A stretch of 64,000 bases of DNA, taken from positions 1,922,001 to 1,986,000 of the forward strand of contig NZ_CP119802.1 in NCBI RefSeq assembly GCF_029338355.1, read 5' to 3'. Positions 11,696-22,122 of the stretch are shown here, in pieces (the first letter of the stretch is position 1; every line of letters starts with the position of its first letter). The stretch comes from Halosegnis marinus (lineage in GTDB: Archaea > Halobacteriota > Halobacteria > Halobacteriales > Haloarculaceae). Below the pieces are notes generated by a model. It had not been told where the DNA came from. It did not search any database and was given only the letters and a program-made list of their open reading frames with translations. The position numbers were made by a program, and so were the translations under genes.

Positions 11696-12120
11696 CAGCG
11701 GACCCGCGCGCGGATGGTCGCGTGTAACAGGGCGAACTCCCGAAGCGTCATCGGGAACCGGCCCTCTATCTTCGACTGCACCTCGCGGGCTTCGAGGTCG
11801 CCGCCCGCCTCCGCGGCCAGCGCCTCCACGTCGAGGACGGCCTGCGACATCCCCATCATCAGCGCGTCGCGCGACAGCAGGACGATGCTCTCGGCGTCGT
11901 CGTCCTCCGCGGCCGCCAGCAGCGCAGCGGCTTCCTCCAGCGTCAGTTCGGGCGCGTCGCCGGCCGCGACCGCCGCGACGGTCTCACGGTCGAGGTCCGT
12001 CCGCGCCGCGACGGCGTCGACCCCCGCGGATTCGACGGCGTCGGCGAGTTCGGCCGCGAGCGCCGCGTACAGTTCCTCCGGCGTGTGCTCGCCGGGGTCT
12101 GAGACCAGTTCGTGGAACAC
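11695..12120 (-). CDS. DUF5791-type haloarchaeal protein
   Basis: 141 residues, acidic and helical, starting with GTG at VFHELVSDPGEHTPEEL. This start is followed by the sequence I recall for haloarchaeal DUF5791. The middle resembles a helix-turn-helix-like unit (DRETVAAVAAGDAPELTLEEAAALLA), but no binding function is established. The stop overlaps the SDR start (ATGA), so the two genes are coupled. Confidence 0.75.
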   Translation of the reverse strand: MFHELVSDPGEHTPEELYAALAAELADAVESAGVDAVAARTDLDRETVAAVAAGDAPELTLEEAAALLAAAEDDDAESIVLLSRDALMMGMSQAVLDVEALAAEAGGDLEAREVQSKIEGRFPMTLREFALLHATIRARVR

Positions 12121-12160
12121 GCCCCGCGGTACGCGACCGCGGCTTAAGAGCCTTCGATTC

Positions 12161-12370
12161 TCAGTAGAAGCCCGTCGCCGTCCACGCGCCGCGTATCTCA
12201 CGTTCCGCGACCTCGGTTCCGTGCTCCTCGACGAACCGTTCGGCCGTCCGCTCGTCGCAGCCGAGCACTTCGTCGGCCATCAGCGCCGCGACGAGGCGGT
12301 CGTGCGGGCGCGGCGTCACCTCGCGGTCGGCGTCGAACAGGTCGTCGCGGTTGGGTTCGGGGACGGTCAC
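12161..12370 (-). CDS. small uncharacterised protein
   Basis: 69 residues, MTVPEPNRDDLFDADREV at the N-terminus, no hydrophobic segment and no metal-binding cysteine pair. It looks like an acidic, helical, soluble protein. It sits 33 bases after the pilus-like operon and 40 bases before the DUF5791-type gene, so it may be carried on the same transcript. The codon pattern (G or C at third positions) supports coding. Function unknown. Confidence 0.65.
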   Translation of the reverse strand: MTVPEPNRDDLFDADREVTPRPHDRLVAALMADEVLGCDERTAERFVEEHGTEVAEREIRGAWTATGFY

Positions 12371-12403
12371 GGTCGGCGTACGGTCGCCGGCGACAAACGC
12401 CTT

Positions 12404-15370
12404 TCACCAGCCGGCAGAGCGCTCGTCGGCGTTCCCGTCCGTGTCGCCGACGCCCTGTCCGCCGGGCGGCACGACGACCACGACGGCCGTCTCGACCGAG
12501 AGGTCGACCTCGCTCGCGCGGCCCGCGTGCTCCGCGTCCCCGTCCCCGTCCCAGTCGATGCCGACCGCGCCCCCGTCGCGGACGTACGCGAGCGTCCGGC
12601 CGGGGAAACCCTCGCGCGACCGCACGACGAAGCGGTCGTACGCGCCGCGCGCCTCGACGGTCCAGACGTTCGTGGTCGCGTACCACTGGCTCGGCAGCGG
12701 GGTGACGGGGAGCCCCGACGGGACGCGGGCCAGCGAGCGTCCGAGGCGCCGTTCGACCCGCTCCGTCGCCACGGTCGCGGTTCGGTTCGCGGCCCGCGCG
12801 GCGGCCCGCGTCGCCGCCTCCGTCGCGAGCCGGCGTGTCGCCGTCACGCCGGCGTTCACCGCGGACTGGGGAACCCCGTCACCGCTCGTCGCCGCGGCAC
12901 GGAGGGCGAGCCGGAGCCGGTCCCGCGCCTCGGTTTCGGCGACCGTCTCGGGGTACCGTTCGGCCGCGACACCGGCGACGGCAGCCGCAGCCGAGCCGTT
13001 CGCCAGCGCGAGCGCGCGGGTCGCCGGGGTCGTCCAGCGGTCGAGTCCGGCGGCGACGACGGCGCGCCGGTCATCGGAACTGCTCCCGACCCCCGCCTCG
13101 GCGAGCCGGTGTCGCAGCGCCTCCCGTCGGCGGTCGACGGCCGCGCGGACGGCGTCGCGGATCCGCTCGCGCCGCGCGCTCGCCCGCTCGTCGTCCGTCT
13201 CGGCGGCCACTCCCTCGGCGCCCCGGAGCGCCCGTGCCGCCGACCGCAGGCGGACGCGCCGCTCGCCGAACAGTTCCCCGACGACGCTGTCCGCGACGTC
13301 GCCGTAGGGAACCGTGAACAGGTTCGTGTTCCGGGCCGCGAGCGGGACGGTCGAGCCGTTCCCACGCGCGTCCGTCGCCGCGCGGTCGACCCGCGACAAC
13401 GAGAGATACGCCGGGGCGCCCTCGACGGCGACCCGCTCGCCCGACACCGTTCCGTTCGCCCCCGAACTCACTTCCCCTCGGGCGTCGAGCAGTGCCCCGA
13501 GCCGGTCCCGGGAGAGTCCGTGGTCGGCGAGCACCGACGCGAAACGGTCGCCCGCGTCCCGCCGGCGGTCGGCACGGCGGTCGAGCGCGGACAGCACCGC
13601 GTCGAGGTACGCGGCCCGCGCGGCGACGCGGGCGCGGTCCGCCACGCCGTCGTAGGTCGGCGGCGCGTCGAGCAGCGCCGCGCGCCGCTCGCGGACCGCC
13701 GCGGCGAGTGCGGCCGCCGGGTTCGCGTCGTAGGTCCCGACCGCGCCGCGCTCGACCGCGACGGAGACGTTTCGGACGCGCTCGCGCAGGCCGACGAGGT
13801 CGCGGTACACCCACGCCCGTAGCTCGTCCGGCGGTTCGCCGGACAGCGTCGTCCGGTTCGGCCCGAGCGTCCCGGCGACCGCGCGGCGAGCGACGGCGTC
13901 GGTACCGCCGCGCTCCGCTACGAGTCGGTCCGTGGCGCGCTCGCCGACGGCGCCGAGGTTCGGGCCGTCGAGGACGCCGCCGCGCTCGTGAACGGGCTCG
14001 ATCTCCCGGACGGGTGCCGGGCCGCCGTCGTGGCGACCGACGACGGCGACGCGGACCCGTTCGCGGGTCGTCACGACCTCGGTGGTGCGGGCGGTTCGGT
14101 TCCCGCGTCGCCAGCGCCGGACGACGGTCCGGCGCTTTGTCACCTCGCGGGCCGCCGAGGAGACGACGTGTCGGGGGGACGCGGCTCCGATGTCCGTCGC
14201 GTTCGCGCTCGCCACCGACAGCCCGGTCGTCACGTTCCGGGCGACGAACGTCCAGTTCTCGCCGTCGGGCGCGGCGCGCCCCGTCCGCGTCGTCCCGAGG
14301 GTCGTCACGGCCACGCGTCGCTCAGCCCGGACGCGGTAGGTCGCGGCTATCGCGGCCGCGAGGCCCCCGTCGACGAACCTGCGGAACGCCCGGTCGGCGG
14401 TCGCGTTCACGCCGACCGCGAGGGTGTCCTCCGGGCCGACCGCCGGCGTGTCGGCGGCTCTCGTCGGGTCGAGCGTCGAGCCGGGGACCGCGCCGTCCGC
14501 GGCCCGAATCAGGGCGGTCGACTCCGCGCCCGAGGCGCCCGCGCCGGCGAGCAGGTCCGCGCCCGCCGCCCGGGTCGCGGCGGTTCGGGTCGCCCGGACC
14601 GCGGCGTCGTCGGCCGTGCCGAAGACCGCGCGCTGTTCGGCGAGCAGCGCCCCGTTCGTCGCCACCGCGACGTGGCGGTTGCCGACGACGTTGGCGATCG
14701 GCGCGCCGCCGTACTGTGCTACCCCGCGAGTCCACGCCATCGCGTAGAGGCGGGCGGTCGCGCGGCGCGCCAGCCCCGGTGCGGTCGCGTCGGCGTCGAG
14801 CCGTCGGTCGAACCGAACCGTCCGCTCGTGGAGCGCGAGCACGGACGAGGCGACCTCGACCGTCGGCGAGACGCGCACGCGTTCGACCGTTCGGCCGTCG
14901 CGGGTCGCGACGAGCGTGACGTTCTCGACGGTCACGCGGAGGGCGTCCGCCTCGTCTACCGCTTCCACGCTCGTCCGTGCCAGCACGGCCCGGAGGTCGG
15001 CGGCCGTCGAGAGTCGGGGGAGCGACGGGGCGGCGCGGACCCCCTGTGCCGTCGTCCGGTCCAGCCGGTCGCGGAGCGCGAGGTAGGCCCGCAGTTCGAG
15101 CGACGCGCGGAACGGGTCGCCGGTCGCGGCGAGCGCCCGCCCGAGCGTCGTGTTCGCGGTCGCGACGACCGGGTTCGCCGCGGCCTCGCGGGCCGCCGTC
15201 CGCGTCGCGTCGCGGAGGTCGCCGCCGAGCGCGACGCGGGCCTCCTCCAGCGCGGCCTCGGTGTCCGGCTCCGTCACCGTCACGCCCCCGAGCGCGCCGG
15301 ACATCGTCGCGCTCCCGGCGAGCAGGAGGACGCCGACGAGGGCGAACGGGACGCGCGCGCGCTCGTTCAC
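12404..15370 (-). CDS. giant pilin-like surface protein (DUF7286-type)
   Basis: 988 residues. A single N-terminal hydrophobic helix (VPFALVGVLLLAGSATMSG) follows the short basic stretch VNERAR, an arrangement like archaeal type IV pilin signal peptides, where cleavage would fall after RA. The rest, about 960 residues, has no further membrane segment and should lie outside the cell. It is Ala- and Arg-rich with many NxT/NxS sites, possible N-glycosylation sequons. I recall it as the haloarchaeal DUF7286 family. GTG start in a GTGA overlap with the DUF7284-type gene; a GTG three codons upstream is possible but less likely. Last gene of the pilus-like operon. Confidence 0.85.
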   Translation of the reverse strand: MNERARVPFALVGVLLLAGSATMSGALGGVTVTEPDTEAALEEARVALGGDLRDATRTAAREAAANPVVATANTTLGRALAATGDPFRASLELRAYLALRDRLDRTTAQGVRAAPSLPRLSTAADLRAVLARTSVEAVDEADALRVTVENVTLVATRDGRTVERVRVSPTVEVASSVLALHERTVRFDRRLDADATAPGLARRATARLYAMAWTRGVAQYGGAPIANVVGNRHVAVATNGALLAEQRAVFGTADDAAVRATRTAATRAAGADLLAGAGASGAESTALIRAADGAVPGSTLDPTRAADTPAVGPEDTLAVGVNATADRAFRRFVDGGLAAAIAATYRVRAERRVAVTTLGTTRTGRAAPDGENWTFVARNVTTGLSVASANATDIGAASPRHVVSSAAREVTKRRTVVRRWRRGNRTARTTEVVTTRERVRVAVVGRHDGGPAPVREIEPVHERGGVLDGPNLGAVGERATDRLVAERGGTDAVARRAVAGTLGPNRTTLSGEPPDELRAWVYRDLVGLRERVRNVSVAVERGAVGTYDANPAAALAAAVRERRAALLDAPPTYDGVADRARVAARAAYLDAVLSALDRRADRRRDAGDRFASVLADHGLSRDRLGALLDARGEVSSGANGTVSGERVAVEGAPAYLSLSRVDRAATDARGNGSTVPLAARNTNLFTVPYGDVADSVVGELFGERRVRLRSAARALRGAEGVAAETDDERASARRERIRDAVRAAVDRRREALRHRLAEAGVGSSSDDRRAVVAAGLDRWTTPATRALALANGSAAAAVAGVAAERYPETVAETEARDRLRLALRAAATSGDGVPQSAVNAGVTATRRLATEAATRAAARAANRTATVATERVERRLGRSLARVPSGLPVTPLPSQWYATTNVWTVEARGAYDRFVVRSREGFPGRTLAYVRDGGAVGIDWDGDGDAEHAGRASEVDLSVETAVVVVVPPGGQGVGDTDGNADERSAGW

Positions 15371-16227
15371 GCCGACCACCGCCGGACGACGATCCGGACC
15401 TCGCCGGCGCGGACGGCACGCGCGGCCGCGGCCGGGGAGTCGAACGCCGCCCGTACTCGTCGTTCGTACCCCTCACGGAGCGCGCGCCGGAGCCGTTCGT
15501 TCGCCGCCGCGGCGTCCCCGCGCTCGATTGCCGCCGTGGTGTCCGCGCCGAACAGTCGGTCGGCCCGCGCGTAGCGGCGCGCGGCGAGCCGGTCGGTCGG
15601 GTAGTCCGCGGCCAGCGCGTTCGTCATCCCCTCGCGGGGGAACAGCACCCGGGTCGTCGCGTTCGCGAGGACCCGGGCGACGCCGGCGTAGCCCGAGCGG
15701 TTCGCGGCGGCGAGCGCGCGTGCCCTGGCCCCACCCGCGGCCGTCTCGACCCGCAGCACCCGACTCGCCACGGACGCGTCCCGCGGCGGCTCCGGGCCGG
15801 CAGCGAGGCGTCCCCCGACGTCGGCGCCCTCGTACGGCTGCCACACCGTCAGGACCCGTGTCCGCGTCCCGGTGGCGTTCGCGACGGCCGCGGCGACGGC
15901 ACGCTCGTACCCGTCGCTCGTCCGGGCGAGTTCGGTCCCGCCGACGGTCGTGTTCCGCACCGCGCCGCGCGCGAGCAGGCCCGCGAGCCGACCGTGTGCG
16001 TGCCGGTCGAACGTCTCCCCGACGCGGGGGAACCGCTCCGGTGCCCCGGCCGCGCCGGGCGCGAGCGAGTAGTTCACCGAGACCGACACCCGCGAGACGA
16101 CCGTCGCGGACGGCTCCGCGTCCGGCGCGGGCGGCGTTCCGTGTGGCGCCGCGAGCGTCGTCGCCGCGGCCGAGACGAGCAACAGAAACAGCGCCGCGTC
16201 GAGCACGGTACTGACGCCGCGGCTCAC
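15367..16227 (-). CDS. pilin-like protein (DUF7284-type)
   Basis: 286 residues. The N-terminus VSRGVSTVLDAALFLLLVSAAA has the RG-V-S then hydrophobic helix pattern of haloarchaeal type IV prepilins, where PibD-type peptidases cut after RG. The remaining 260 residues are a soluble ectodomain with several NxT/NxS sites. The GTG start overlaps the previous stop (GTGA), and the stop overlaps the next start in the same way. The coupling on both sides suggests a fixed stoichiometric role in the machine. A longer upstream reading frame would sit wholly inside neighbouring genes. Confidence 0.82.
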   Translation of the reverse strand: MSRGVSTVLDAALFLLLVSAAATTLAAPHGTPPAPDAEPSATVVSRVSVSVNYSLAPGAAGAPERFPRVGETFDRHAHGRLAGLLARGAVRNTTVGGTELARTSDGYERAVAAAVANATGTRTRVLTVWQPYEGADVGGRLAAGPEPPRDASVASRVLRVETAAGGARARALAAANRSGYAGVARVLANATTRVLFPREGMTNALAADYPTDRLAARRYARADRLFGADTTAAIERGDAAAANERLRRALREGYERRVRAAFDSPAAAARAVRAGEVRIVVRRWSA

Positions 16228-16592
16228 CAGACGCTCACCCGGAGTCGCCCGGGGACGACGCGGCCGGGCCCGACGCGAACGGGCACGCGGCGTCGGGCGC
16301 TCGCCGCGACCCGTGGCGGGGTCGGTCCCCGCGTCCACGAGCGGTTCCCGACGGCGAGCGAGACGTTCGTTCCCTCCGGGAGCGGAATCGAATCAACCCG
16401 AGCGGGCGGGACGACGCCGGCCGGCGCGAGGTCGTCCGCGACCGCGTCGAGTCGCGCTTCCGGACTCGGCCCCTCCCGCGGTAGCACGTCGTCGACGACG
16501 CCGGCGTACGCCGAGAGCGCGAGACAGACCGCCGCGACGGCGACGAGCGCCGCCAGCGGCTCGGCCTGCGCCCTATCCGACGAGCGTGACAT
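16224..16592 (-). CDS. pilin-like protein (DUF7285-type)
   Basis: 122 residues. MSRSSDRAQAEPLAALVAVA has a class III signal peptide look: a short charged leader, RA-Q-A at the expected cleavage point, E five residues after the Arg, then a hydrophobic helix. The ectodomain is about 85 residues. The size and shape are those of a minor pilin. The ATG lies 20 bases inside the end of the DUF7283-type gene, and the stop overlaps the DUF7284-type start. Confidence 0.82.
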   Translation of the reverse strand: MSRSSDRAQAEPLAALVAVAAVCLALSAYAGVVDDVLPREGPSPEARLDAVADDLAPAGVVPPARVDSIPLPEGTNVSLAVGNRSWTRGPTPPRVAASARRRVPVRVGPGRVVPGRLRVSVW

Positions 16593-17043
16593 CGACACCT
16601 CCCCACGTGACGCGGCGGACGCGGAGCCGGTCGGGCGCGGCTCGCCACCCGGGGTCGCCGGTTCGAGCGCCGTGTGCGACCACGGCGAACTCGGTCGGGT
16701 CGGCGAACACGTCACCGGGCGGCTCGCCGGCGAGCACCGCCGCGAGCGGGCCGTCGTCGCGGACGGGCGTGACGGGTCCGTACTCGAAGTCCGCGTGTGC
16801 CGTGCCGTCCGGCCCGCGGAGCGAGACGCCGCGGGGCGTGAGCCGTATCCGGTCGGCCCGGTCGAGCGATGCCGTTTCGCTGCCCGCGTACGCGCTCGCG
16901 GCGAGCGAGTCGACCGTCCGAGCCGCGCCCGCGGCGTCCGGCGGCGGGGCGGTCGGGAGGCCGGCAGCGACCCCGAGCGCGCCCGCGGCGACGAGGCTCG
17001 CGCCGAGCCACGCGTACCAACCGTCGATTGGTGCGTCGAACAC
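16573..17043 (-). CDS. pilin-like membrane protein (DUF7283-type)
   Basis: 156 residues with GTG start (VFDAPIDGWYAWLG), one N-terminal hydrophobic helix (WLGASLVAAGALGVAAGL) and a soluble ectodomain. The prepilin cleavage motif is less clear than in its two neighbours, so it may be a plain N-terminally anchored subunit. The N-terminus matches what I recall of haloarchaeal DUF7283. It starts 32 bases after the GspF-like gene, the largest gap in the operon. Confidence 0.8.
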   Translation of the reverse strand: MFDAPIDGWYAWLGASLVAAGALGVAAGLPTAPPPDAAGAARTVDSLAASAYAGSETASLDRADRIRLTPRGVSLRGPDGTAHADFEYGPVTPVRDDGPLAAVLAGEPPGDVFADPTEFAVVAHGARTGDPGWRAAPDRLRVRRVTWGGVDVTLVG

Positions 17044-17075
17044 GGGGGCGGTGGCCGCGCTCCGGTACAAAAAGC

Positions 17076-18761
17076 TCAGGCGACCAGCCCCCCGGCGACG
17101 ACGGCCGCGAGGTAGGTCGCCGTCGCCGCGAGCAGCGCCAGTCCGACCCGGTAGCCGACGAGCGCGCGGTCGAAGCCGCGCTCCAGGCCGGTCGCGAGCG
17201 CCGTGAGCAGGACGGCGAGGAGGAGGACGTAGCCGCCGACCGCGACCGCGAGCGGGCCCTGTGGGAGCGCCTCGCCGAACTCGCTTCCGCCGACTCGACC
17301 GGCCAGCGCGACGGTGACGCCGCCGACGAGCGGACCGAACACGGCCGCGGTGTTGCCTATCGTCCCCGTCGCGTGGCGCACCGAGCGGCGGGCCTCCCGC
17401 TCGACGCGCGCGAGGTCGGCGAGGTGTTCGCCCGCGGCGACGAGTGCGGGGCCCGCCGGCCGGCCCTCACGCGCCGCGTCGGCGAACAGGCGCGCCGCGT
17501 CCGCGACCCGGCGGCTCGGGAGGTCGCCGACGGCCCCGTGTTCGCCGAGCAGCGAGTCGCGAACGCCGACACCGAGTGCCGAACCGCGGTCGGCCGCCTC
17601 CGCGAGCAGGGCCGCGGCGGGCGTGTCCGACTCCGCGCCCGCGGCGACGAGCGCCGTCTCGACCGGGTCGCCGTCCGCGACCCGGCGGCCGACGGCGTAC
17701 AGCGCGTCCGGCAGTCCCTCCTCGACGGCGCGCACCTCTGCGCGTACCTCGCGGTACGGACGGAACCGGAACACGAGCGCGGTGCCGACGCCGAACCCGG
17801 CCGCGGCCACCGGCGGCGTCCACGCCGGGAGCAGTCGCGGGGCGACGACCCACGCGCAGGCCGCGACCGCGACGCCCGCGGCGAGGGCCCCCCACGGGGC
17901 GTCGGGCACGTCCGGGTGGTCGCGCGGGACCGGCGTCGCCGGGAACGCGACGGGACGGTTCGCCACCAGCCAGGCCGACGCGACGAGCAGGCCCAGCGGG
18001 AGCGCGAGGTCGTAGACGGCCACGACGACCGGAACCGACACCGGCAGTCCGGCGACACGGGTCGCGGGGAGGGCCGCGACGAACGCCAACGGCAGGAGGA
18101 CGCCGAACGCGTACACCGCGGTCACCGGGCCGCGCAGCGCCGCCGCGTCCCCCGCCGCCCGCTCGCGTACCCCGGCCAACACCGCGTCGAGCGCGCGGTC
18201 GATGCCCCGGTCGCGCTCGTCCGCCGGCGCCTCGGCGGCGCTTTCGAGGAGCCGAAGCCCCCGCCGCAGGGGCGGGAAGCGGTCGCCCCACCGGTCGAGG
18301 AAGTCGCCGAAGCCCGCGTCCCCGGTGCCCCGTGCCCGCCGAACGGACGCCGCGAGCCCCCGGTCGAGCGGTCCCGCGGGGTCACGAGCGGCGAAGGCGG
18401 CCGCGGCCTCCCGGGTCGGCGTCACGCGGAGCCGCATCGCGGCCCGGCAGACGAGCCACGGCGCGGTGCCGAGCGCGCGCCGTCGGAGTGCGCCCGCCGC
18501 GAGTTTCGGTCCGCGGAGCGCGACCTCGCGCCCGCCGAGAGCAAGGGCGACGGCGACGAGGAGCACGGCGGGCCGGAGACGGGTCGGCGCGAGCGCGGTC
18601 GCGAGCAGACCCACGCCGCCGACCGTGACCGCCAGCCCGTCCGCCGCGCGACGGTAGGTCGCGGTGTCCGACCGACCGAGCAGCCGGAGCGCGACCGCGA
18701 GGTCGGCAGTCGGCTCGGGTTCGGCCGGTGCGAGCCGTGCGAGCGCGCCGAGGAGGCTCAC
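17076..18761 (-). CDS. type II secretion/type IV pilus GspF-like membrane platform protein
   Basis: 561 residues. Two helical cytoplasmic domains alternate with clusters of membrane segments: about 45-80, then 215-270, 295-345 and 470-560. This matches archaeal PilC/TadC-type proteins with two T2SF domains, which form the inner-membrane platform turned by the GspE-like ATPase. The second T2SF domain is clearest (EEGLPDALYAVGRRVADGDP, then VRDSLLGEHG). GTG start in a GTGA junction with the ATPase gene, as expected for an ATPase-platform pair. Confidence 0.85.
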   Translation of the reverse strand: MSLLGALARLAPAEPEPTADLAVALRLLGRSDTATYRRAADGLAVTVGGVGLLATALAPTRLRPAVLLVAVALALGGREVALRGPKLAAGALRRRALGTAPWLVCRAAMRLRVTPTREAAAAFAARDPAGPLDRGLAASVRRARGTGDAGFGDFLDRWGDRFPPLRRGLRLLESAAEAPADERDRGIDRALDAVLAGVRERAAGDAAALRGPVTAVYAFGVLLPLAFVAALPATRVAGLPVSVPVVVAVYDLALPLGLLVASAWLVANRPVAFPATPVPRDHPDVPDAPWGALAAGVAVAACAWVVAPRLLPAWTPPVAAAGFGVGTALVFRFRPYREVRAEVRAVEEGLPDALYAVGRRVADGDPVETALVAAGAESDTPAAALLAEAADRGSALGVGVRDSLLGEHGAVGDLPSRRVADAARLFADAAREGRPAGPALVAAGEHLADLARVEREARRSVRHATGTIGNTAAVFGPLVGGVTVALAGRVGGSEFGEALPQGPLAVAVGGYVLLLAVLLTALATGLERGFDRALVGYRVGLALLAATATYLAAVVAGGLVA

Positions 18762-20533
18762 GCGAACGCCTCCCGTCGGGCGTCGAGGGCGCGGCGCACG
18801 TCGGCGTACTGCTCGCCGGGCGCGGCGAGCGTCGCGACCGTCGCGCTGTTGCCGCGTTCGATGCGGCCGGTCGCCGCGAGGCCGTCGCCGTCGCGCTCGA
18901 ACAGCGGGGCGAACGACGGCTCCTCGCGGCCGACGACCTCGTGGACGCCGGCGACGCCCCTCTCCGCGTCGCTCCGGTCGAGCGTGACGACGAGGTCCGT
19001 GTCGGCGAACGCCGACGGCGCGACGCCGAGGTCGGCGACGACCCGCTCGCGGACGGCCTCGGGGCCGTCCCCGTGGACCGTCCCGAGCGTCGCGCCGCCC
19101 GCGCCGACGCGCATCGCCTCGTAGAGCGCCTCGGCCTCGGCCCCCCGGACCTCGCCGACGACGAGCGCCCCCTCGCCGAGGCGGAGCGCGGCCCGGAGCG
19201 CCTCGGTCGGGCCGACCCCGTCGCCGTCGCGGGCGACCCGGAGCCGCTGGCAGTCGCGGCCGGCGGCCCGGAGCGCGTCGACGGGGAGCTCCGGGGTGTC
19301 CTCCACGACGACCGTCCGGGTCCCGGCCGCGAGCTCGAACAGGAGCGCGCCGAGCGTCGTCGTCTTGCCGACGCCGCGACCGCCCGCGAGCAGTACCGCC
19401 GCGCCGCGCTCGACCGCGACGGAAAGCAGGCCGGCGACGGCCGGGGTGAGGGTACCGTTCGCCACGAGGTCCGCGAGGCGGAACGGGTCGCCGTCGTGGG
19501 CGCGGAACGCGAACCCGTGGCCGTCGCTCACGGGGTCGGTGACGCCGGCGACCCGGAGCTCGCGGTCGCCGGACGCGACCGCGGCGTCGAGCGTCGAGTC
19601 GGCCCGCGAGAACGCGCGACCGCTCTCACGGCGGAAGCGGGAGGCGAGGGCCGCCGCGCCCGCGGGCGTGAGGTGGAGGTTCGACCGGACGGCCACGTCA
19701 GCGCGTTCCAGCCGGAGGGGGCCGTCGCCGACCGGCGCCGAGGCGTAGGCGTCGGAGACGGCTGGGTCGGCGAAGACGTCGTCGAGGACACCCAGCCCCC
19801 GGGTGTGCTTGTCGAGGACGGCGGTCAGCGTCTCCACGGGGTCGTCCGGGTCGGCGACGGCGCGGACGGCCCTCCCGGCCGCCCGCTCCCCGGCGAGCGC
19901 GTTCGCGGCGAGGTGGTCGGCGGCGGCCGCGAGGGTGGCCGTCGCGTCGGTGTCGAGCGTCAGTTCGACCGGCGTGAGGTGATACGTCGGGAGCGGGTCG
20001 TCGCCGCGCTCGTACAGGCGGACGGTCGCCCCCGTGTCGAGGTCGTAGCGGTCGGCCAGCCGGGCGTCCGGCGGCGGCCGGGCGACCACGCGCTCCTCGC
20101 CGACGGTCGGGGCGACGCGCGGCCGGAGCAGGGCGTCGTAGTCGCCCCCGGTCGCGGCCTCCGCCAGTCCCGTCACGGCCGCGAGCCGCGCGACGGCTCC
20201 CGCCCGCCCGGTCGCGACCCGGGCCGCGTCGAGGGGGTCGCGCTCCGTCCGCGCGGCGAGCGCCTCGTCGTAGAAGGCGACGGCCTCGGCGAAGCGCCCG
20301 GCCGCCACGAGCAGGGCGGCCGCGCCGTCCTCGTAGGCGCGTTCGAGGCCGTCCGCGCGGCTGTGGACGCTTTCGGCGTCGCGGTCCCGGAGCGCGGCGA
20401 CGGCCGTCGCGCGGCAGTCCGGGGCCGCGGCCAGTCGTCCCGAACCGGGGCAGTCGGTCGCGTCGAGGCGGAGCGCGTCTCCGTCGAATCGGGGTTCACA
20501 CCGGCAGTCTGCGGTCGAGCGGAGTCCGAACAC
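18758..20533 (-). CDS. GspE/PilB/VirB11-like secretion ATPase
   Basis: 591 residues. The catalytic half has Walker A GGRGVGKTT near 383-391, an Asp-box VVVEDTPELPVD, Walker B ALVVGEVRGAEAEALYEAM and a His-box GTVHGDGPEAVRERV. It drives assembly or secretion by the adjacent GspF-like platform. The N-terminus carries four cysteines, C10, C12, C28 and C40 (DCRC, DCPG, DCRA), which could bind zinc; most PilB proteins do not have this. GTG start 38 bases inside the end of the DUF7311-type gene. Confidence 0.92.
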   Translation of the reverse strand: MFGLRSTADCRCEPRFDGDALRLDATDCPGSGRLAAAPDCRATAVAALRDRDAESVHSRADGLERAYEDGAAALLVAAGRFAEAVAFYDEALAARTERDPLDAARVATGRAGAVARLAAVTGLAEAATGGDYDALLRPRVAPTVGEERVVARPPPDARLADRYDLDTGATVRLYERGDDPLPTYHLTPVELTLDTDATATLAAAADHLAANALAGERAAGRAVRAVADPDDPVETLTAVLDKHTRGLGVLDDVFADPAVSDAYASAPVGDGPLRLERADVAVRSNLHLTPAGAAALASRFRRESGRAFSRADSTLDAAVASGDRELRVAGVTDPVSDGHGFAFRAHDGDPFRLADLVANGTLTPAVAGLLSVAVERGAAVLLAGGRGVGKTTTLGALLFELAAGTRTVVVEDTPELPVDALRAAGRDCQRLRVARDGDGVGPTEALRAALRLGEGALVVGEVRGAEAEALYEAMRVGAGGATLGTVHGDGPEAVRERVVADLGVAPSAFADTDLVVTLDRSDAERGVAGVHEVVGREEPSFAPLFERDGDGLAATGRIERGNSATVATLAAPGEQYADVRRALDARREAFA

Positions 20534-20969
20534 TGGGCGTCGTGGTCCCGTTTCCGGACTTGAACCTACGGACCAGGAGCAGATCCTCGCCGTCGCGGGC
20601 GACCAGCGAGAGCCGCAGCCGGTGGCGGCCGGGCTCGCGGAGCCACAGCGGCCCGTCGAACGACAGGTCCGTCTCGACGCGGTTCCGTCCGTCGCGCTCC
20701 CACGCGAGGGACTCGCCGCGCGGGCCGACGCCCATGCCGAGGTCCGTCTCCCGGGGCACGCGAACGACGACCACGAGGCTCGCGCCCGCCGTCCCGGGCG
20801 GCGCGGGGTCGTTCCGCTCGGCGAAGCGGGCGACCCGCTCGCGGAGGTCGGTCAGTTCGTCGCGCGCGAGGCCGTCAGCCCTCCCCGCCCGCGCGTCCTC
20901 GACCGCCGGGAGGGCGTACCCGACGAGCGCGGCCGCGAGCAGGACGGCGAGGACGACCCGGACTACCAC
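20496..20969 (-). CDS. small anchored protein of the pilus-like operon (DUF7311-type)
   Basis: 157 residues. A hydrophobic N-terminal helix (VVRVVLAVLLAAALVGYAL) is followed by a soluble beta-rich domain (LVVVVRVPRETDLG, HRLRLSLVARDGEDLLLV). It is probably anchored in the membrane with the domain outside. I recall it as haloarchaeal DUF7311. The GTG start overlaps the previous gene by seven bases, and the gene end overlaps the ATPase start by 38 bases. Confidence 0.8.
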   Translation of the reverse strand: MVVRVVLAVLLAAALVGYALPAVEDARAGRADGLARDELTDLRERVARFAERNDPAPPGTAGASLVVVVRVPRETDLGMGVGPRGESLAWERDGRNRVETDLSFDGPLWLREPGRHRLRLSLVARDGEDLLLVRRFKSGNGTTTPSVRTPLDRRLPV

Positions 20970-21325
20970 AGGTCGCGCAGCCGCTCCCCGAGGCTCGGTT
21001 CCCCCTCGGACTCGACCGGGACCGACCGCTCGCGGGGGCGGGGCGTCTCCTCGTCCAGTCGTGCCTCGGTCTCGCGGGCGACGGCGAGCGCGCGCTGGGC
21101 GACCTGCGCCGTCTCGCGGTCGATTCGCTCCGCGTTCCCGACGTGACCGCGCACGGTGGCCACGTCCCCCTCGGCGTCGGCGAGCCGGTCCTCCATCGCG
21201 TCCAGCCGCTCGGCGAGGGCGTCGAGGCGGCGCTCGACCGCCGCGGCGTTCGAGAGGTCGGCCGGGCCGCGGTCGTCGTCGGTGATGGTCCGCTCGACGG
21301 CGTCGAGGCGGTCTTCGAGGGTCAC
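20963..21325 (-). CDS. coiled-coil protein, first gene of the pilus-like operon (DUF7310-type)
   Basis: 120 residues, GTG start at VTLEDRLDAVERTI. The central region is a heptad-rich coiled coil (ERRLDALAERLDAMEDRLA), followed by an acidic, Pro-rich tail ending LGERLRDLW. It is cytoplasmic, without membrane segments, and perhaps a scaffold or regulator of the ATPase. The start fits a TATA-like element 25 bases upstream (21350-21355). A longer frame with an upstream ATG would cross that promoter. Confidence 0.8.
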   Translation of the reverse strand: MTLEDRLDAVERTITDDDRGPADLSNAAAVERRLDALAERLDAMEDRLADAEGDVATVRGHVGNAERIDRETAQVAQRALAVARETEARLDEETPRPRERSVPVESEGEPSLGERLRDLW

Positions 21326-21349
21326 GCGGGTCGTGGGCGCGTCACCGCA

Positions 21350-21355
21350 CTTGAA
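21350..21355. promoter_or_regulatory. shared TATA-like element between divergent genes
   Basis: CTTGAA reads TTCAAG on the other strand. It lies 25 bases from the GTG of the pilus-like operon and 21 bases from the ATG at 21376, so one element, or two overlapping ones, could serve both directions in this 50-base gap. Confidence 0.35.
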
Positions 21356-21375
21356 CCCTCGCGGCCCCAAAACCC

Positions 21376-22122
21376 ATGTCCGGTCTCGTTCACGGGCCGA
21401 CGATGCCCTCCCCGCCGAGCGGTGACGAACGGACGCGACGGCTGCTGGGGGCGCTCGCGCTCGTCGCCGGACTCGCGCTCGTGCTCAACGCGACCGTCGT
21501 CGGCGCGTTCGCCGTCGGCGAGCCGGTGTACCGGTACGACACGTTGGCCGTGGAGACCGAGGGCGGCATCGGGTTCGGCGGGGGCTCGCCCGTGGATACC
21601 GTGCCCGACGACGTGGTCGGCCTCGACTGCCTGTACGACTCCGCACACACGCGGCTGTGCGAGACGGAGCGGTGGCTGCTCGACCGGAGCGCGAACGACA
21701 CCGTGACGGTCACGGTCGAGTCGCCGGAGTCCGTCTACGTCGAGGAGCCGGCCCCGCGGTTCGCGCTCCACCCGAGCGGTATCTACGAGCGCACCCGGAC
21801 CCTCGTCGAGGAGAACGGGACGCGGACCGCCCGGCTGACGCTCGAACGGGTGGCGACGCGCGAGGCGGTCGCGGCGGTCGCCGCCGACCCCGACGAGCTT
21901 CCGCGCGCGGCCGAACGGGCGGTCGAGGACGGGCCGGTCACGACGCGCGAGCGGCTCGGGGTGAACGGGCAGGTGGTCGTGACGGAGAACGGCTTCGGGA
22001 TACTCGTCGCCGACCGCGCGCGGCCGGCCCGGCCGGGGCGTGCGACCGGGTTCGCGGCCGCACAACTGCTCGCCGCGGCCGGGCTGTTCGCGGCCGGGAG
22101 CCGGCCGTTCCGGCGGGGCTGA
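21376..22122 (+). CDS. two-helix membrane protein next to the pilus-like operon
   Basis: 248 residues. A membrane helix at about 24-46 (LLGALALVAGLALVLNATVVGAF), an ectodomain of about 150 residues with Cys in LDCLYDSAHTRLCETE (a likely disulfide), and a C-terminal helix (AAQLLAAAGLFAAGS) ending RPFRRG. NDT and NGT sites could be glycosylated. No known domain is recognised. An internal ATG at 21403 is an alternative start. Divergence from the operon across 50 bases suggests shared control. Confidence 0.75.
   Translation: MSGLVHGPTMPSPPSGDERTRRLLGALALVAGLALVLNATVVGAFAVGEPVYRYDTLAVETEGGIGFGGGSPVDTVPDDVVGLDCLYDSAHTRLCETERWLLDRSANDTVTVTVESPESVYVEEPAPRFALHPSGIYERTRTLVEENGTRTARLTLERVATREAVAAVAADPDELPRAAERAVEDGPVTTRERLGVNGQVVVTENGFGILVADRARPARPGRATGFAAAQLLAAAGLFAAGSRPFRRG

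Follow-up and report, generated by a model that had tools for sequence, protein, structure and literature searches.

A giant DUF7286 surface protein as the probable outer recognition component of an archaeal pilus-type machine

The minus-strand gene at 12404..15370 of the window, by which we mean the whole stretch of 64,000 nucleotides from Halosegnis marinus (contig NZ_CP119802.1) that was analysed, encodes a giant surface protein of the family DUF7286, which probably serves a pilus-type machine as its outer component for recognition. The fuller reading, to which we give about an even chance, is that a dedicated type IV-filament-like machine, powered by the VirB11/TadA-type ATPase and the TadC-like platform encoded nearby, has DUF7286 as a giant extracellular component that is pilin-like and anchored by its N-terminus. 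What the first-pass annotation had observed in this protein is confirmed and its interpretation is partly supported, and a nameless family of 1000 residues gains a place in a specific machine.

The open reading frame runs without interruption from 12404 to 15379 on the minus strand, and the start GTG at 15370, which forms a GTGA overlap with the stop codon of the upstream gene (DUF7284), gives a product of 988 aa. By profile comparison this product certainly belongs to the Pfam family DUF7286 (PF23957), with a score of 1017.5 bits, where the cut-off is 27, and positions 2-1000 of the 1000 in the profile aligned; the agreement extends over the whole profile, there is no difference in membership, and the family carries no assigned function. 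Other Pfam families above their cut-offs were absent from the window protein and from 23 haloarchaeal members. The copy in the window genome is single and full-length, and a search of the genome contigs with the protein returned one locus only. The single N-terminal hydrophobic segment described earlier, with a body free of membrane segments behind it, was recovered: the 19-residue Kyte-Doolittle maximum is 1.88 at residue 9, against a next best value elsewhere of 1.34 at residue 786.

Class III signal peptides have a basic residue, a G or A at position -1 and then about 15-20 hydrophobic residues. The N-terminal segment of the window protein, R-A-R-V-P-F-A-L-V-G-V-L-L-L (residues 4-23; 15301..15361, minus strand), is a membrane anchor and a possible class III-like processing region. 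We aligned on the PFA motif the 42 haloarchaeal members, which are the window protein and those of 41 further haloarchaeal loci (40 of the 41 DUF7286 genes outside the window, plus L022). The preceding Arg is present in 41 of the 42, [AG] in 42, Arg at +1 in 40, Pro at +3 in 41 and Phe-Ala in 42. Of 8 methanogen members tried, the 7 that were displayed retain the PF core as well, and the anchor is conserved from haloarchaea to methanogens. The [AG] at the presumed -1, the Pro at +3 and the hydrophobic run are as expected of a class III signal peptide, but the Arg at +1 is unusual, and the sequence agrees only in part with the proposal that the protein is anchored like a pilin. The window genome has one Peptidase_A24 prepilin-peptidase candidate and ten T2SSE-type ATPase matches, which indicates that it holds several filament systems.

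The Arg at +1 argues against ordinary prepilin cleavage, and in this respect it favours a reading that we consider possible though unlikely, namely that DUF7286 is no filament part but serves in assembly or as a scaffold: a signal-anchor protein that stays uncleaved in the membrane, passes through the S-layer and guides or gates a filament made of the small pilin-like proteins. This scaffold would also suit the single copy of DUF7286 found in most genomes and a mostly helical body, which is suggested by the secondary structure of the full-length model at a confidence so low (pLDDT 35.5) that the model itself is unusable. Against it stands the exchange of the tail together with a secreted partner in Methanosarcina, described below, which a scaffold with a structural role alone would not readily account for. 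The alignment behind the modelling had two sequences. Pilins fold as a long N-terminal helix with a beta sheet. A weak model of residues 1-266 (pLDDT 56.0) shows helices followed by a five-strand meander (133-174), and its structural comparisons gave nothing convincing, with a best Z of 5.7, to unrelated proteins, and no Foldseek match under E 0.18. Profile searches found no PDB relative up to E 10, and no relative was found in viral contigs.

The reading of DUF7286 as part of a filament machine rests first on its genomic context. The genes follow one another on the minus strand in the order DUF7311, ATPase, TadC-like, DUF7283, DUF7285, DUF7284, DUF7286, DUF5791 and an SDR-type gene, and the operon from DUF7311 to DUF7286 is, judged by its sequence, conserved and partly translationally coupled. 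The DUF7311 protein (PF23993; 20496..20969) has an N-terminal membrane anchor. The VirB11/TadA-type secretion ATPase (18758..20533; PF00437, 6e-15) also matches TIGR03819 at 5.5e-31, which is under that model's own cut-off, and it carries an N-terminal CxC...C...C region whose cysteines C10, C12, C28 and C40 are invariant in 10 members and possibly bind metal. The TadC-like membrane platform protein (17076..18761) overlaps the stop of the ATPase gene by 4 bases and has no Pfam or NCBIfam match; we call it TadC-like because of its position, composition and conservation. Then come the DUF7283 protein, with an N-terminal membrane anchor (PF23954; 16573..17043, start GTG 17043), the DUF7285 protein, with an N-terminal anchor, AQAEPLAALVAV (PF23956; 16224..16592, start ATG 16592), and the DUF7284 protein, with a pilin-like N-terminus, SRGVSTVLDAALFLLL (PF23955; 15367..16227), whose start GTG at 16227 overlaps the DUF7285 stop as GTGA. 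This type of overlap thus occurs at the ATPase/TadC and DUF7285/DUF7284 junctions as well as at the start of DUF7286. All these genes lie on the minus strand, as does that of the DUF5791 protein (PF19104; 11695..12201), which is predicted to be cytoplasmic and is a frequent neighbour, present in 32 of the 41 haloarchaeal loci. In the same loci DUF7284 is present in 41, DUF7283 and DUF7285 in 39 each, and the ATPase and the TadC-like protein in 36 each, so that DUF7286 is encoded, as pilins are, together with an assembly ATPase and a TadC-type platform. No PilA-family major pilin was detected by Pfam in the operon. A 69-aa open reading frame at 12161-12370 was dropped as a part of the operon, since it has no relative in the 41 loci.

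This arrangement resembles a known group of archaeal pilus loci. In the part of the survey by Makarova 2016 considered here (PMC4858521), ATPases with a cysteine-rich N-terminus are placed in subclade 4F. The window operon shares with archaeal type IV pilus loci the combination of an ATPase, a TadC-like protein and several small anchored proteins, and its ATPase has the N-terminal CxC...C...C, a likeness drawn from the cysteine-rich region. Compared with the type IV pilus loci described in that part of the survey, the DUF7286 operon differs in showing no PilA-family major pilin by Pfam and in having a dedicated partner of about 1000 aa. The names DUF7286, DUF7283, DUF7284, DUF7285 and DUF7311 were not found in the literature searched, Makarova 2016 included. 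For Haloferax volcanii, a laboratory strain that has the DUF7286 family, five pil operons are listed in the portion of one report used here (PMC6491452), and in the corresponding portion of a proteomic study PilB1 and PilB4 were detected in one medium only (PMC7305310). A primer-derived 17-mer of a Haloferax volcanii locus was found in 0 of 170 genomes.

The second line of evidence is phyletic. Among 294 genomes of the phylum, DUF7286 occurs in 76 and the ATPase subfamily, at E up to 1e-45, also in 76; the two occur together in 72, DUF7286 alone in 4 (G141, as a fragment, G204, G255 and G302) and the ATPase alone in 4 (G011, weakly, G194, G258 and G285), with a Fisher p of 2.4e-58 that is uncorrected for shared ancestry. 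In methanogens the ATPase gene is mostly distant from DUF7286. Nevertheless, when 10 methanogen-type genomes were searched with the ATPase profile, 9 gave one match of 362-426 bits, their other ATPases reaching at most about 125 bits, and G204 gave only a general one. Such co-occurrence, with so few discordant genomes each way, ties DUF7286 to the machine even in methanogens, and together with the conservation of the operon it supports the earlier suggestion that the protein is part of a type IV-filament-like machine.

The position of the large body was examined through its NxS/T sites, which the first-pass annotation had described as many. The window protein has 13 of them against 3.1 expected, a number that none of 2000 shuffles reached. 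In the 44 other predicted genes of the window the total is 36 and the expectation 34.6, which makes the excess specific to the DUF7286 protein. Over the 42 haloarchaeal members we counted 439 sequons against 164 expected, and the ratio is 1.8-3.9 in each eighth of the protein; single positions are mostly unconserved, each being present in 1 to 23 of the 42. Enrichment is also seen in the remaining anchored proteins that the operon encodes (DUF7284 3.2, DUF7285 3.1, DUF7283 2.1 and DUF7311 3.2 fold). Observed and expected counts in the control families are 0/2.1 for DUF5791, 2/9.1 for SDR and 13/13.9 for TadC. The ATPase, cytoplasmic by family, has 44/26.6, a ratio of 1.65, so the measure is not perfectly clean. 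Because the enrichment extends along the full length in the 42 members, we infer that the DUF7286 body is extracellular, in keeping with the exposed ectodomain proposed at first.

Size, sequon density and exposure would also suit a structural, S-layer-like cell-surface protein that merely shares the operon, and S-layer-like proteins are mentioned in archaeal type IV pilus loci in the consulted part of Makarova 2016 (PMC4858521). We nevertheless hold this to be very improbable: DUF7286 is coupled phyletically to one ATPase subfamily, it has a pilin-like N-terminus, and its distribution is patchy (32 of 41 good-quality relatives).

The composition of the body had also drawn attention, as Arg-rich and less acidic than most proteins of the region. 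The window protein indeed has 14.0% Arg, 0.1% Lys, 12.1% Asp+Glu and a pI of 10.6, against medians of 17.05% Asp+Glu, 10.05% Lys+Arg and pI 4.7 over 52 window genes, which were chosen by a GC3 heuristic and some of which may be wrong. This holds for the window protein and not as a trait of the family, in which the pI of the 42 haloarchaeal members extends from 4.1 to 11.7. Net charge correlates with the GC content of the gene (rho 0.64, n=42) and of the region (rho 0.54), so that GC drift is the best explanation of the basic charge. A basic surface as a functional signal, for instance for DNA binding, was rejected for the family, since charge varies with GC and acidic members are numerous. The 12-22 kb part of the window is its most GC-rich continuous part (0.76-0.79, with nearly all of the rest at 0.68-0.76), and the operon proteins encoded in 12000-22000 are correspondingly Arg/Ala-rich.

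The best-conserved part across the family is the C-terminal domain (about residues 877-988; 12404..12742, minus strand), which has DxDxDG-like and GDxDGxxDE acidic motifs. Its invariant or near-invariant columns are W896, T899, N901, W903, G909, D939, D943, G944, G970, G973-D976 and S985, and in haloarchaeal pairs the last tenth of the protein is among the most conserved parts. In Methanosarcinaceae and relatives, DUF7286 is followed by a gene for a secreted protein of the sarcinarray family (TIGR04209). This family is present in 36 of the 294 genomes, 32 of them also with DUF7286, and in 31 of these 32 a sarcinarray match starts downstream of a DUF7286 C-terminal end, at most 200 bases away. 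The four genomes with sarcinarray and, at the thresholds used, neither DUF7286 nor the ATPase subfamily (G069, G137, G142 and G216) are of one genus; in the genus taken as Methanosarcina, DUF7286 is present in 22 of 30 genomes. The only mention of sarcinarray found in the literature is a table entry, and no function for it was found there; these unexplained methanogen proteins now become linked to the DUF7286 machine.

Close analysis of 24 methanogen loci gave 41 units that reach the C-terminus, namely 20 intact heads and 21 shorter frames, and a sarcinarray gene lies next to 40 of the 41. Behind 10 of the 15 intact Methanosarcina heads there are one or more orphan C-terminal fragments, several of which are degenerate; this proportion is not an unbiased rate, because the loci were partly chosen for arrays. 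In L075 and L094 short DUF7286 C-terminal frames in tandem alternate with sarcinarray genes, several frames being degenerate in L094. In L100, also from a methanogen, the DUF7286 gene is broken into three frames, and the sarcinarray gene downstream of it is intact.

The tail of these heads appears to be exchanged. Over the 105 pairs of the 15 heads, mean identity is 73-82% in the segments before column 1090, 68-80% between columns 1090 and 1280 and 61% over the final 77 columns, and the identity of the body shows no correlation with that of the tail (rho 0.08). Tail identity correlates with that of the adjacent sarcinarray protein (rho 0.40, Mantel p 0.0015), the value for body and sarcinarray being 0.36. 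Genome G340 has two copies far apart, L087 and L088, which share 99.4% identity over the body but 61% over the tail and have divergent sarcinarray neighbours; their DNA identity is 93-100% over the body and about 80%, then lower, over the last ~550 bases of the gene. An orphan tail in L079 is 95% identical to the head tail of L096, from another species, and their sarcinarray genes are 91% identical. Neither the tail data (AU p 0.005) nor the sarcinarray data are compatible with the body tree, the rejection being stronger for sarcinarray. The pairs L085-L097, L087-L092 and L101-L102 are found in both the tail and the sarcinarray trees and are missing from the body tree, which indicates that the tail recombines as a cassette. 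The linkage of tail and sarcinarray is only partial, since the tail data conflict with the sarcinarray tree by the AU test (p 0.009), though not by SH, and the tail tree is in turn rejected on the sarcinarray data.

Heads followed by orphan tail and partner cassettes, with co-inheritance of tail and partner, resemble polymorphic toxin arrays as described in the relevant part of Makarova 2021 (PMC8416519). One could thus suppose a contact-dependent conflict system in which DUF7286 serves for delivery, the tail is the effector and the downstream gene encodes an immunity protein. We judge this improbable, because no known toxin domain was found by Pfam in 23 haloarchaeal members, by NCBIfam in the window protein or in the one methanogen head scanned, because the Methanosarcina tail keeps one conserved domain in place of unrelated ones, because sarcinarray proteins look secreted, and because the clade of the window has neither a partner nor a variable tail. 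The secreted effector offered as one option in the first-pass annotation is not supported: Pfam and NCBIfam revealed no enzymatic or toxin domain in the window protein and the 23 haloarchaeal members. Its other option, a tip adhesin, is compatible with the data. A recognition role of DUF7286 is favoured because the C-terminal tail behaves as a cassette in Methanosarcina.

It is the relatives that show the cassette behaviour, which only suggests what role the C-terminal domain of the window protein may have. The window genome gave 0 matches to TIGR04209, so that no sarcinarray gene follows DUF7286 in it, and orphan C-terminal cassettes with paired partner genes, present in Methanosarcina relatives, were not found in this genome. 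Since the tail is conserved in the clade of the window and the sarcinarray gene is absent, we claim no swapping for it.

Among known systems, the closest in layout are the VARTIG modules of Thermococcales and the polymorphic toxin arrays, which, in the part of Makarova 2021 that concerns them (PMC8416519), likewise have a large head, a variable C-terminus and co-directed downstream genes, and which share recombination between species with the Methanosarcina relatives. They differ in that DUF7286 has no recognised Ig or toxin domain and is linked to a type IV-filament ATPase, and nothing of this kind is seen in the clade of the window. In the same part of that work, variable modules outside Thermococcales were sought through Ig and CARDB domains, and none closely like VARTIG is reported. 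UpsA, the species-specific Sulfolobus pilin cited there (PMC8416519), offers a comparison in mode of action, as a type IV filament component that confers self/non-self specificity. Among the papers listed for archaeal silent cassettes with pilins and for MAST/archaeosortase, there was no description of head/orphan-tail arrays.

Taken together as a mechanism, DUF7286 would be inserted through its conserved N-terminal hydrophobic segment, as its sequence indicates, and the body of ~960 residues would lie outside the cell, as the sequon enrichment suggests. A dedicated ATPase/TadC pair would handle it, to judge from operon structure and phyletic co-occurrence, and the small anchored proteins DUF7283, DUF7284, DUF7285 and DUF7311 may work together with DUF7286 and this pair. 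The conserved C-terminal domain would be the recognition head, perhaps at the tip of the filament. In Methanosarcina the head appears to be diversified by exchange of the C-terminal tail and the downstream secreted sarcinarray gene as a cassette, on the evidence from relatives, and in the haloarchaeal clade of the window the head would remain conserved. Only tentatively do we extend this to a machine of the Halobacteriota with DUF7286 as its recognition tip, in which the Methanosarcina tail and sarcinarray are swapped as one cassette between heads and orphan arrays, within and between species. If true, this would be an archaeal pilus-linked variable recognition system, for kin recognition or conflict. 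The findings also suggest a testable route by which archaea may change the object of their recognition.

Two haloarchaeal genomes have a second, longer DUF7286 paralogue, L043 beside L035 and L044 beside L033, of 1351 and 1389 aa, respectively. L043 is accompanied by its own ATPase/TadC set, and L044 has none in the stretch examined.
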